From: Candidatus Aquidulcis sp.
GTDB lineage: Bacteria > Chloroflexota > Anaerolineae > Anaerolineales > UBA4823
DNA length: 37,183 bases
NCBI GenBank assembly: GCA_020723385.1
Contig: DYIZ01000054.1
Location: forward strand, 1 to 37,183
Direction: 5' to 3'
Of the stretch, positions 12,291-30,621 are shown one piece after another. The notes below the pieces were generated by a model. That model made no database searches. It was not told the origin of the DNA and worked only from the letters and a program-made list of their open reading frames with translations. The translations under genes and the position numbers were made by a program. Positions within the stretch are counted from its first letter, which is position 1. Every line of letters begins with the position of its first letter.

Positions 12291-12342
12291 ACCTGCCCTG
12301 CCACCTGTTTACCTGATACCTGATTACCTGCTTACCATCTCC
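12291..12342 (+). repeat. Degenerate 8-nt tandem repeat before a start codon
   Basis: The element ACCTG occurs at 12291, 12303, 12311, 12318 and 12326, with ACCAT at 12334. Steps are 12, 8, 7, 8 and 8 nt and the consensus is ACCTGNTT. The run ends a few bases before the ATG at 12343, and no Shine-Dalgarno sequence is visible. Confidence 0.75.
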
Positions 12343-13581
12343 ATGCGCATCCTCTACCTCTCCCAATACTTCCCCCCCGAAGCTGGAGCCACCCAAACCC
12401 GCGCCCACGAAATGGCGCGCAACTGGGTGCGGCTTGGCCACGCTGTGACCATGATCGGCGAAGTGCCCAACCACCCATCGGGAATCATCCCGACCGAGTA
12501 CCGCGGCAAGCTGTGGGAGCGCAAACCCCTCGATGGGATTGACGTAATCCGCGTGTGGGTGAAGGCCTCGCCGGTCAAGAATTTCCGCAACCGGATGCTG
12601 TTCTACTTGACCTTCATGGTCAACGCCGCGCTGGCCGGGCTGTTTCTGGCGCGCGGCAAATTCGACCTGATCTATGCCTCGTCGCCGCCGCTGTTCGTGG
12701 GCGGGGCGGCGCTGGCGATCAGCTTCCTGCGCCGGATTCCGCTCGTCTTCGAGGTGCGCGACCTTTGGCCAGAGAGCGCCGTGGCGCTCGGGGAATTGTC
12801 CAGCCCGAAGGCGGTGGCGCTGGCGACAAAGCTCGAAGTCGCCTGTTACCGCCGCGCCCGCAAGATCATCGTTGTCACCGAGGGGATTCAGGATAAGCTG
12901 CTCGCACGCGGCTACCCGGCTGACAAAGTGATCCTGGTTCCAAATGGTGCCAACATCGCCATGTTTCGCTTCGATCCGGGGAAGCGCGCCCAGACGCGTG
13001 CCGAATGGGGCATTGCGGAGGAAAAATTCGTGGCGATCTACGCCGGGATTCACGGCGTCGCCCAGGGGTTGGAGACGCTCGTCGAGGCGGCGCGCCGCCT
13101 GCAATCCGAGGCGGGCATACATTTCCTCCTCGTCGGCGAAGGCCCCAAAAAGGCCGAGATCGCCGCGCTCGTCGCCGAGTACGGCCTGACCAACGTCACC
13201 CTGATGCCCGAACAGCCGCGCGAAGCCATGCCTACGCTGCTCTCCGCCGCCGATGCTGCCATCATCCCGCTCAAAAAGCTCGATTTGTTCAAAGGCGCTC
13301 TGCCCTCCAAGCTGTTCGACGCCTGGGCCTGCGAGCGGCCAGTGCTGCTCTCGGTGGATGGTGAAGCTCGGAAAGTAATGGAGGCCGCCCAGGGTGGCCT
13401 GTTCGTCCCGCCCGAAGACCCCGCCGCCCTGGCCGAAGCCATCCTGTCTCTCGAAGCCGATCCCGATTTGCGCGCCGAGATGGGCCGCCGGGGGAGGGCA
13501 TTCACCGAGCAAAACTACTCCCGCCAGGCGCTGGCCGAGAGATTAGCGGGAATACTGGATTCGGTGAGCAGTGAGCAGTAA
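12343..13581 (+). CDS. GT4 glycosyltransferase, WbuB-like
   Basis: This 412-residue protein opens with MRILYLSQYFPPEAGATQTR and has EVPNHPSGII, VFEVRDLWPESAVALGEL, VVTEGIQDKL, VPNGANIAMF and LPSKLFDAWACERPVLL. This set matches the WbuB/FucNAc-transferase-like branch of GT4, which adds an N-acetylated amino sugar to a lipid-linked acceptor in O-antigen synthesis. That fits the amino-sugar genes in this locus. The donor-site glutamate of the branch (LFEY) is Asp here (LFDA). The start ATG follows an 8-nt repeat tract rather than a ribosome site. Confidence 0.88.
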   Translation: MRILYLSQYFPPEAGATQTRAHEMARNWVRLGHAVTMIGEVPNHPSGIIPTEYRGKLWERKPLDGIDVIRVWVKASPVKNFRNRMLFYLTFMVNAALAGLFLARGKFDLIYASSPPLFVGGAALAISFLRRIPLVFEVRDLWPESAVALGELSSPKAVALATKLEVACYRRARKIIVVTEGIQDKLLARGYPADKVILVPNGANIAMFRFDPGKRAQTRAEWGIAEEKFVAIYAGIHGVAQGLETLVEAARRLQSEAGIHFLLVGEGPKKAEIAALVAEYGLTNVTLMPEQPREAMPTLLSAADAAIIPLKKLDLFKGALPSKLFDAWACERPVLLSVDGEARKVMEAAQGGLFVPPEDPAALAEAILSLEADPDLRAEMGRRGRAFTEQNYSRQALAERLAGILDSVSSEQ

Positions 13582-13628
13582 TCAGTGATCAGTAACCTGG
13601 CCACCTGACAGGTTACGAAACAGGCACT

Positions 13629-13687
13629 CTGAGCGTAGTCGAAGAGCGCCGAATCGCCTGGAAACCGCATCCTTCGACTGCGCTCAG
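13629..13687. repeat. Inverted 16-nt repeat, copy 1
   Basis: CTGAGCGTAGTCGAAG (13629-13644) faces CTTCGACTGCGCTCAG (13672-13687), its reverse complement with one mismatch. The first arm is identical to 17598-17613. This TTCGACT(A/G)CGCTCAG type is a dispersed repeat seen in many bacterial genomes (established pattern; copy number here not computable). Confidence 0.75.
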
Positions 13688-13701
13688 GATGCTTCTCTCG
13701 A

Positions 13702-13749
13702 AACTATCCAACCATCAAACTATCAGATCATCAGACTATCAAACTATGA
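13702..13749 (+). repeat. Six 8-nt tandem repeats ending in the wecB start codon
   Basis: Six consecutive 8-nt units with consensus RACTATCA run from 13702 to 13749 without a gap. The last unit, AACTATGA, supplies the ATG at 13746. No ribosome site is visible within it. Confidence 0.85.
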
Positions 13750-14825
13750 AACTCATTCACATCGTCGGCGCACGACCCAACTTCATGAAAGCCGCCCCGC
13801 TGCTGCGGGCGCTGGCTGTTTACCCGCACGTTCAAAACCTGCTCGTCCACACCGGGCAGCACTACGACGAGAACATGTCCGATGTGTTCTTCGACGATCT
13901 CCACTTGCCCCGCCCCGACATCAACCTGGGCGTCGGCTCCGGCTCACACGCTGAACAAACTGCCAATGTCATGCTGCGCTTCGAGCCGGTGCTGCTCGAA
14001 CACAAACCTGATGGGGTTGTCGTGTTTGGCGATGTCAACTCGACCATCGCCTGCGCGCTGGTGGCAGCCAAGCTGCATATCCCCGTGGTGCATGTCGAAG
14101 CCGGGGTGCGCAGCTTCGACCGGATGATGCCGGAGGAGATCAACCGCGTGTTGACCGACGCCCTGGCTGATTTGTGTTTCACCCCGTCACGCGAGGCCAA
14201 CGACAATCTGCGCCGGGAGGGGATTGCAGAGGAGAAAATTCATTTCGCCGGGAATGTGATGGTGGATGCCCTGCTCGAGGCCGCCGCCATCGCCAGCCAA
14301 CGGGAAAGCTGGACCCGCTGGAATCTGCACCCCCAGGGGTACGCGGTCACCACCCTGCACCGCGCCGCCAACGTGGACGACCCGGCCACACTGGCGAGAT
14401 TACTGTCAACTCTCTCTATACTGGCTATACGCATACCAATCGTGTTCCCCATCCACCCACGCACAGCCAAACGGCTGGTCGAATCTGGCATCCCCACCGA
14501 TGCGCCAGGACTCATCCTGACTGAGCCGCTCGGTTACCTCGATTTCCTGTGCCTGATGTCGCAAGCCAAGCTGGTGCTGAGCGACTCGGGCGGCATCCAA
14601 TCCGAGACTTCCATGCTCGGCGTGCCCTGCCTGACGCTGCGCGCCAACACCGAATGGGGCGTGACCCTCACCGAGGGCACCAACATCCTGGTCGGAGACG
14701 ATCCGGAGCGTATCCTGGCCGAAGCCGACAAAATCTTGCGCGGCGAAAGCCGCCAGGGGCGCCGCCCCGAATTCTGGGATGGGCAGGCGGCACAACGCAT
14801 CGCCAAAGTGCTGGCGAAGCGCTAA
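13746..14825 (+). CDS. wecB: UDP-N-acetylglucosamine 2-epimerase (non-hydrolysing)
   Basis: This 359-residue protein matches WecB/MnaA, which interconverts UDP-GlcNAc and UDP-ManNAc. Visible motifs are GARPNFMKAAPL (8-19), HTGQHYDENM (35-44), GDVNST (95-100), HVEAGVRS (116-123), PEEINR (129-134), SDSGGIQSE and the C-terminal TEWGVT...GTN pattern. Residues D96, E118 and E131 fall where the catalytic acids of the E. coli enzyme lie. It is the last gene of the glycan cluster and gives ManNAc-type precursors. The ATG at 13746 was chosen because the family begins MKLIHIVGARPN; an in-frame upstream ATG at 13689 lies in repeats. Confidence 0.93.
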   Translation: MKLIHIVGARPNFMKAAPLLRALAVYPHVQNLLVHTGQHYDENMSDVFFDDLHLPRPDINLGVGSGSHAEQTANVMLRFEPVLLEHKPDGVVVFGDVNSTIACALVAAKLHIPVVHVEAGVRSFDRMMPEEINRVLTDALADLCFTPSREANDNLRREGIAEEKIHFAGNVMVDALLEAAAIASQRESWTRWNLHPQGYAVTTLHRAANVDDPATLARLLSTLSILAIRIPIVFPIHPRTAKRLVESGIPTDAPGLILTEPLGYLDFLCLMSQAKLVLSDSGGIQSETSMLGVPCLTLRANTEWGVTLTEGTNILVGDDPERILAEADKILRGESRQGRRPEFWDGQAAQRIAKVLAKR

Positions 14826-17563: not shown

Positions 17564-17613
17564 CTTCGACTACGCTCAGACCGCCTGGTGAAGCGCCCTG
17601 AGCGTAGTCGAAG
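17564..17613. repeat. Inverted 16-nt repeat, copy 2
   Basis: CTTCGACTACGCTCAG (17564-17579) faces its exact reverse complement CTGAGCGTAGTCGAAG (17598-17613), with an 18-nt loop region. The second arm is identical to 13629-13644. It lies between the terminator and the Nudix gene; a small GCGGCCTAAAGGCCG hairpin-like stretch follows near 17640. Confidence 0.8.
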
Positions 17614-29677: not shown

Positions 29678-30544
29678 ATGGCTACCCAATCCTCCTCCGC
29701 CTCCCGCCTCGCCACACAGCGCATCGGCTTCAGTCTGATGACGCTGATGACGCTGCTCACGGTGACGCCGATATTACTGGTTGTGGCGTACATCGTCTGG
29801 CAGGGCGCGCCGGCGATATCGGTCGAATTCCTGACCGGCTTCCCACGCGAGGGGATGAAAGCGGGCGGTATCCTGCCCGCCATCGTGGGGACGTTCTACC
29901 TGACGCTGGGTACAGCCGTCTTTGCCGTGCCGCTGGGGTTGGGCGCGGCCATCTATCTCTCGGAATACGCACCCGATAACCGCTGGACGCGGCTCATCCG
30001 GCTGGCGATCATCAACCTGGCGGGGATTCCCTCGGTGGTGTACGGGTTGTTCGGGCTGGGGCTGTTCGTGCTGTTCCTGCGCTTCGGCACCAGCATTTTG
30101 GCCGCATCGCTCACCCTTTCGATCATGACCCTGCCGGTCATCATCAGCACCGCCGAGGAGGCCCTGCGGGCTGTGCCTCAGTCATTCCGGGTGGTGAGCA
30201 TTTCACTTGGGGCCACACGCTGGCAGACCATCCGGCGCATCGTGCTGCCCCAGGCGCTGCCGGGCATTCTCACCGGGGTGATCCTCGGGCTGGAACGCGC
30301 CGCCGGGGAAACCGCCCCCATTCTCTTCACGGGCGCAGCTTTCTTCTTGCCGCGCCTGCCCCACTCGCCGCTCGACGCCACGATGGCGCTGCCTTATCAT
30401 CTTTTCGTCATCTCGACCCAGGTTCCGGGGATGCCGGTCGAAATCCAGTACGGCACGGCGCTGGTGCTGCTGGTTTTCGTGCTGGGGATGAATGTGATCG
30501 CGTCGGTGATCCGGTCGAGGGCGAGGGCGAAACGACAATGGTGA
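29678..30544 (+). CDS. pstA: Phosphate ABC transporter permease PstA
   Basis: This 288-residue protein is the second permease, with about six membrane helices. PstA features are GGILPAIVGTFYLTLGTAVF, IYLSEYAP, NLAGIPSVVYGLFGLGLFV, VPQSFRVVSISLGATRWQTI (EAA loop), and LERAAGETAPILFTGAAFF. The LGATRWQTI core of the loop is identical in PstC and PstA, as expected if both dock on PstB-type ATPases. It lies 125 nt after pstC, the gap being a dispersed palindrome. Confidence 0.93.
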   Translation: MATQSSSASRLATQRIGFSLMTLMTLLTVTPILLVVAYIVWQGAPAISVEFLTGFPREGMKAGGILPAIVGTFYLTLGTAVFAVPLGLGAAIYLSEYAPDNRWTRLIRLAIINLAGIPSVVYGLFGLGLFVLFLRFGTSILAASLTLSIMTLPVIISTAEEALRAVPQSFRVVSISLGATRWQTIRRIVLPQALPGILTGVILGLERAAGETAPILFTGAAFFLPRLPHSPLDATMALPYHLFVISTQVPGMPVEIQYGTALVLLVFVLGMNVIASVIRSRARAKRQW

Positions 30545-30552
30545 ACGCAAAA

Positions 30553-30598
30553 CGTAATTCGTAAAACGTAAGGGGCATTTTACGGATTACGCTTTACG
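30553..30598. repeat. Heptamer repeats as inverted arms between pstA and the second pstB
   Basis: CGTAA lies at 30553, 30560 and 30567, and TTACG at 30580, 30587 and 30594. Both arms step by exactly 7 nt. ACGTAATTCGTAA is shared with 28582-28594. The dyad fills almost the entire gap between pstA and the next start codon. Confidence 0.85.
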
Positions 30599-30621
30599 TT
30601 TTGCGAGCGTCTGAAATCATT

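Follow-up and report, generated by a model that had tools for sequence, protein, structure and literature searches.

An octamer tract carrying the wecB start codon is most likely an arm of a genome-wide class of gap-filling intergenic repeats

In a contig of Candidatus Aquidulcis sp., six 8-nt units follow one another directly into the start codon of wecB, which raises the question of why a tandem array stands in the ribosome-binding region of this gene and whether it serves translation there. An earlier note, made from the sequence, had proposed that this tract, together with others nearby, represents a common way of making translation starts in the cluster. The window, meaning the whole 37,183-nt stretch of DNA that was analyzed (DYIZ01000054.1), is one contig of a 6.43 Mb genome in 239 contigs (G000). 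The features of the window are as follows.

12303..12336, + strand: another octamer tract (TACCTGNT) of right-arm type, separated by 6 nt from the glycosyltransferase start, in a gap of 69 nt
12343..13581, + strand: glycosyltransferase gene upstream of wecB, with its last codons and stop inside a heptamer array (Glycos_transf_1; sequence reading)
13564..13595, + strand: left-arm array of heptamers (GTGAGCA / ATCAGTG family) that includes the TAA stop of the glycosyltransferase gene (sequence reading, Tandem Repeats Finder)
13629..13687: dispersed palindromic repeat CTTCGACTNCGCTCAG, two inverted copies (13629-13644, - strand; 13672-13687, + strand) between the arrays
13689..13691, + strand: in-frame ATG farther upstream, from which the tract would be coding; rejected as the real start (ORF list against relatives' alignment)
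13702..13749, + strand: octamer tract of six degenerate RACTATCA units, each 8 nt long, of right-arm type and including the wecB ATG (sequence reading, Tandem Repeats Finder, self-match simulation)
13746..14825, + strand: wecB, UDP-N-acetylglucosamine 2-epimerase, 359 aa (Pfam Epimerase_2, E 2e-107; start from relatives' alignment)
30544..30605: inverted heptamer-array pair, left arm AACGTAA at 30544-30571 and right arm TTTACGN to about 30605, before an ABC transporter gene (30622)

The units of the tract begin at 13702 (AACTATCC), 13710 (AACCATCA), 13718 (AACTATCA), 13726 (GATCATCA), 13734 (GACTATCA), and 13742 (AACTATGA). The earlier note had described six ungapped units of 8 nt each, the sixth holding the wecB ATG, and both statements hold exactly: the units fill 13702-13749 and the ATG occupies 13746-13748. 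It had also called the units perfect in length, which is true, but their sequences vary, as RACTATCA is exact in only two of the six (units 3 and 5), with one mismatch in units 1, 2, and 6 and two in unit 4. Tandem Repeats Finder reported 13701-13753, with a score of 57 at period 8 and 64 at period 16, and the lag-8 self-match of the tract reached 25 of 32 positions, whereas 20 simulations of the window under a first-order Markov model gave no more than 20. The ATG at 13746 is likely the start of wecB, because the product is an Epimerase_2 protein to which relatives' proteins align from residue 1; a home-made gene caller based on codon usage placed the start at the same position. The tract fills the entire ribosome-binding region of wecB, and no Shine-Dalgarno sequence is present there. 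No sigma-70 promoter was detected at 13400-13900, a terminator scan of the same interval returned no terminator-like site, and the window had no Rfam match; the tract corresponds neither to an intrinsic terminator nor to an Rfam-listed RNA class.

The 164-nt gap before wecB is made up of the heptamer array on the left, the CTTCGACTNCGCTCAG palindrome pair, and the octamer array on the right. A search allowing 1 mismatch placed the CTTCGACTNCGCTCAG palindrome at 104 genomic sites and its reversed control at 0. Another inverted pair of this palindrome was seen in the window at 17564-17613. When folded, the wecB gap was more stable than its shuffles (z -3.82), with a stem that comes from the CTTCGACTNCGCTCAG palindrome and not from the tract.

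The octamer tract is not specific to the wecB cluster and belongs to a genome-wide class of intergenic repeats. Two consecutive RACTATCA units, with 2 mismatches allowed, were matched at 40 places in the genome, although this pattern reads the same backwards and its control is therefore void; the control of a second, GACTATCA-family pattern search is not clean either, as it matches the same arrays in another register. Taken together, the genome pattern searches located arrays at 60 or more places. Self-matching arrays were then counted at lags 4-24 in the window and 60 further stretches (926,030 nt), which yielded 118 arrays at lag 7 and 35 at lag 8, against 1, 0, 16, 13, 7, and 4 at lags 4, 5, 6, 9, 10, and 11, the lag-6 arrays all being coding. 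As 21 of the stretches lay on contigs picked for matches to the RACTATCA pattern, a separate count was made for the 40 stretches (488,847 nt) whose choice depended on contig number only: lag 7 accounted for 41 arrays there, lag 8 for 8, and lag 9 for 9. Octamers thus form a minor class, and in this subset they do not outnumber the lag-9 arrays. Although 85% of the sample is coding, 87 of the 153 lag-7 and lag-8 arrays are intergenic. The unit families comprise ATCAGTN, CGTAAAA, CAACYTT, GACCGTT, and CCCCTAT among the 7-nt units and ACAGGTAN/TACTTGTN, TTTGCTGA, and GACTATCA among the 8-nt units, each with a constant core and one to three variable positions.

Arrays also occur inside genes, where they encode linkers. 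One protein (L329 2490-4832) contains a 7-nt array read in three frames, giving QQSAVSD-like heptapeptide repeats, and UvrA (L050 4209-7160) has a short insertion at a GGGGATA-type array.

Seventeen GACTATCA-family sites were inspected by eye with their neighbors; these are a selection of the pattern matches, which also include, for example, two matches within genes (C128 and C145) and weak matches on C20, C29, C170, C192, C212, and C225. Sixteen were intergenic and one was intragenic. Ten of the 16 had two arms, always GTCTGATA-type on the left and GACTATCA-type on the right, and the remaining six, including that of the window, had a GACTATCA-family right arm only, facing a downstream start. 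The flanking genes include L2-S19, S9, UvrA, CofC, HypB, MurJ, and L33/tRNA-Trp. Nine right arms face a protein start, and by eye the array contains or directly adjoins the ATG in five of them: wecB, HypB, CofC, UvrA, and a gene in L329. In the other four, a Shine-Dalgarno sequence stands between array and ATG at two (S9 and the gene of a TadA-like ATPase), AGGAG lies inside the array at S19, and a spacer is present at MurJ. A further GACTATCA-type right arm ends a few nucleotides before tRNA-Trp, behind the L33 gene. At the rplB-rpsS junction (L327 1161-2423), a 102-nt octamer palindrome was observed, its right arm carrying AGGAG before the rpsS start.

The arrays are arranged in a regular geometry. 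Among 367 gaps of 40-650 nt, 72 contained an array and 27 contained two or more, and in 26 of these 27 the outer arrays were inverted copies of each other. The mean inverted score was 17.6 within a gap, which none of 10,000 permutations reached, compared with 9.2 between gaps. Both arrays had the same period in 24 of the 27 gaps, and the purine-richer arm stood on the left in 25, right arms being usually pyrimidine-rich. A cruder GT/AC polarity test gave p = 0.0011 for all arrays in co-directional gaps, and octamers taken by themselves did not reach significance (p = 0.28). Only one of the 27 gaps, that of wecB, departs from the inverted-copy rule: its arrays belong to different families, a heptamer on the left and an octamer on the right, with an inverted score of 5 and a direct score of 7.

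Short tandem heptamers between genes have precedents. The STRR heptamers of heterocystous cyanobacteria (Mazel and others) are reportedly degenerate short tandem repeats dispersed between genes, and the arrays here share all of these properties. As in intergenic heptamer repeats of this type, the present copies are dispersed and mainly intergenic, follow an orientation rule (one strand near stops and its complement near starts, octamers alone being not significant in the GT/AC test), and are sporadic among relatives. The tract itself differs in its period of 8, with heptamer arrays standing in the same gap and throughout the genome. STRR heptamers are also mentioned for Calothrix in the available text of Rehm et al. 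2015 (PMC4692102).

Two published repeat systems come closer. In the portions of MacGregor 2015 (PMC4679880) available to us, TAACTGA heptamer direct repeats are described from marine Beggiatoaceae, Cyanobacteria, and some Bacteroidetes; they are intergenic, lie largely just before starts where canonical ribosome-binding sites are rare, and were suggested to act in translational regulation and to spread horizontally. They share with the arrays here the intergenic tandem arrangement, the admixture of other heptamers, the sporadic distribution across phyla, and relatives with shorter gaps and no repeats. RACTATCA is not the TAACTGA unit, but the neighboring 13564-13595 array belongs to the complementary ATCAGTN family: ATCAGTN, the commonest heptamer here, is the reverse complement of ACTGATN, of which TAACTGA is a rotation. 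Unlike the TAACTGA repeats as described in that text, the present arrays also include 8-nt units, comprise many families per genome, and mostly form inverted gap-filling pairs, whereas only one indirect repeat was counted in MacGregor's main genome; the word Chloroflexi is absent from the same text. Rehm et al. 2015 (PMC4692102) reported, in the corresponding portions of their article, GGGNATC / GGGGA(C/T)T heptamer repeats of Xanthomonas and Nostoc, which stand on the coding strand near stops and on the non-coding strand near starts. Common to these and the arrays here are intergenic heptamers, polarity, a variable position within the unit, and some overlaps with stop codons, and the Xanthomonas repeats likewise form many convergent inverted pairs. 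However, the GGGNATC repeats are one G-rich, quadruplex-capable family, whereas the octamer tract is G-poor, and no mention of octamers was found in the available text. In the open-licence literature, including a search for octanucleotide repeats, no description of intergenic octamer arrays was found. As far as the accessible parts of the two papers go, the polarity of the arrays here fits both systems, and the arrays extend the published TAACTGA and GGGNATC heptamer repeats to octamers and to another phylum, the Chloroflexota.

The earlier note had looked to a comparison of the tract in related genomes; in relatives too distant to follow the gain or loss of single units at the tract, the outcome spoke against a conserved element. 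In G010, from the same family, the wecB homologue is 65% identical and follows the same upstream gene, but the gap is 13 nt (AAGTTATCAGCCC), compared with 164 nt in G000, and contains no array; the preceding junction is about 2 nt, compared with 69 nt with the octamer tract in G000. Counted from the end of the protein alignment, the G010 figures are 28 and 5. No lag-7 or lag-8 array was found in 120 kb of G010. The difference at wecB may reflect loss of an array in G010 instead of gain in G000. We observed that TATCA in the short pre-start sequence of G010, TTATCAGCCC (L052), is spaced from the ATG as it is in the window's final octamer ahead of the start (13733-13745). The tract may have grown from such a TATCA seed, or the match may be due to chance. 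The ATCAGTN pattern was found at 100 places in G000 and at 1 place in the other 37 genomes of the family (2 of 38 genomes positive, counting G000). In a draw from the phylum, 14 of 400 genomes carried it, again counting G000, and several of these belong to a different family within the order. Two such carriers, G116 and G171, also have ACAGGTAN/TACCTGTN-family octamers, and a GTCTGATA array is present in G116 as well. Nine intergenic lag-10 arrays were seen in 140 kb of G171 (L267-L273), a lag hardly seen in G000.

Orthologous gaps in G171 and its relatives have turned over. One holds an octamer hairpin in G171 (112 nt), a different palindrome in G107 (75 nt), another insert in G132 (60 nt), and only 15 bare nucleotides in G275; in all four an AAGGAGA-type site followed by ATG is kept (AAGGAGAA-ATG or AAGGAGATA-ATG). 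In a second gap, an ATCAGTN array is present in G171 but absent from G107; in a third, G171 has TTACCAT units where G107 has TTACCAA-type units, equal in length and reaching the ATG. As read from these alignments, the gaps indicate gain, loss, replacement, and homogenization of repeats rather than conservation of a start signal.

The octamer tract is probably the right (downstream) arm of a gap-filling repeat complex of the genome-wide 7-/8-nt class, presumably transcribed as the leader of wecB. In the G000 lineage, such a complex would have entered the junction of the glycosyltransferase gene with wecB. Repeats of this class usually pair an arm immediately after the upstream stop with an inverse arm ahead of the next gene, and they are gained, expanded, replaced, and lost quickly between related genomes. 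They tend to avoid needed gene signals but can donate a stop codon, as to the glycosyltransferase gene, or a start codon, as to wecB. The transcribed tract would then be a G-poor, open leader lacking a Shine-Dalgarno sequence from which wecB is translated, and its unit number would presumably change by slippage.

A competing explanation, along the lines that MacGregor 2015 proposed for TAACTGA repeats, is that the array is a translational element, either binding S1, a cold-shock protein, or another regulator or serving as a ribosome loading site that works without a Shine-Dalgarno sequence. The right arm does face the start, as do the similarly placed TAACTGA repeats in the available text of MacGregor 2015. 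Contact with gene boundaries was examined for the 77 of 152 arrays that could be placed in gaps, the others being mostly coding or without a called neighbor, with approximate gene starts taken from our home-made caller. Array edges facing a stop lay within 5 nt of it in 27 of 76 cases (null 0.13), whereas those facing a start did so in 7 of 78 (null 0.10); contact with stops, but not with starts, exceeds random placement. A Shine-Dalgarno survey of 642 usable genes among 662 called found 42 with an array that ended 20 nt or less from the start. In 12 genes the array ended no more than 3 nt before the start or overlapped it, and none of these 12 had a Shine-Dalgarno sequence, which agrees with such an element; however, 15 of the 20 genes with an array ending 11-20 nt before the start kept theirs. 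Lacking a Shine-Dalgarno sequence is in any case ordinary in this genome, because only 277 of the 600 genes without a near array have one. The start region of wecB is more open than that of 98% of the genes without a Shine-Dalgarno sequence, but starts with an array within 8 nt were, as a group, not significantly more open than such genes (0.51 compared with 0.48, p = 0.41; 630 genes). Moreover, the same octamers stand before a tRNA gene, heptamer arrays occur in convergent gaps, and the array family in orthologous gaps differs between congeners. We therefore regard a dedicated translational role as unlikely. Of the proposal of a common way to make starts in the cluster, the part that survives is that the tract supplies the wecB ATG without a Shine-Dalgarno sequence and that other genes are alike in this respect; the repeats are, however, a genome-wide class that favors stops and also abuts a tRNA gene. 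The arrays occupy some start regions, and nothing in these data shows that they are placed for starting translation; the tract probably lies against the wecB start codon because such repeats fill short intergenic gaps.

It is very unlikely that the tract is a phase-variation switch in which slippage by 8 nt alters spacing and so switches wecB expression. Tandem units do precede the start of a surface-polysaccharide gene, and two Cyanothece strains were reported, in the accessible part of MacGregor 2015 (PMC4679880), to differ mostly by indels in 7-nt increments. However, only two of the six units are identical, and slippage is therefore expected to be slow; there is no Shine-Dalgarno sequence or detectable promoter whose spacing could shift, and the same arrays precede housekeeping genes such as those of S19, S9, and UvrA. 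Less credible still is a coding tract, with wecB beginning at ATG 13689 and the array forming an N-terminal extension: the frame is open from there, as a 378-aa ORF running through the tract, but relatives begin at the residue encoded at 13746 and the codon-usage call agrees. The earlier statement that gain or loss of a unit leaves the reading frame unchanged holds if 13746 is the start but not if ATG 13689 is, because the ORF from the latter runs across the tract. Chance low-complexity sequence, for which the degenerate units and the short stretch of 8-nt matches might speak, can be set aside in view of the lag-8 self-match above every simulated value and the many related arrays in the genome.

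A broader and more speculative possibility is that an undescribed process makes gene-boundary palindromes with 7-/8-nt tandem arms and spreads them through compact genomes, perhaps driven by a relative of Y1 transposases. Arms would be copied as inverses, with a fixed core and free positions in each unit and the purine-rich arm first; the same unit families would recur in different families of the order, essential ribosomal operons would be reached, and stop and start codons would be rewritten. REP/REPIN elements, which are associated with Y1 (RAYT) transposases, are dispersed intergenic palindromes of 20-40 nt with a tetranucleotide tag; they share the dispersed intergenic palindromes with the arrays here but lack arms of tandem units. 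Y1_Tnp was present in all 14 genomes tried and its presence does not separate array-rich from array-poor genomes. Five array-rich genomes had 5-7 Y1_Tnp matches, compared with 1-5 in the nine genomes where the ATCAGTN pattern matched once or not at all, a post hoc comparison confounded by phylogeny.

The tract is a real, non-random repeat arm, the octamer form of an already described sort of repeat, and most likely a by-product of gap filling that happens to give wecB its leader and start codon. These findings suggest that the repeats of MacGregor and of Rehm et al., described as putative translation signals and as quadruplex repeats, may be views of one class of inverted-arm gap repeats with fixed polarity, a class that also has an octamer form and extends to a further phylum. 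If they are one class, nearness to start codons would follow from gap filling, and interest would shift to the origin of complementary arms built from units of exactly 7 and 8 nt.
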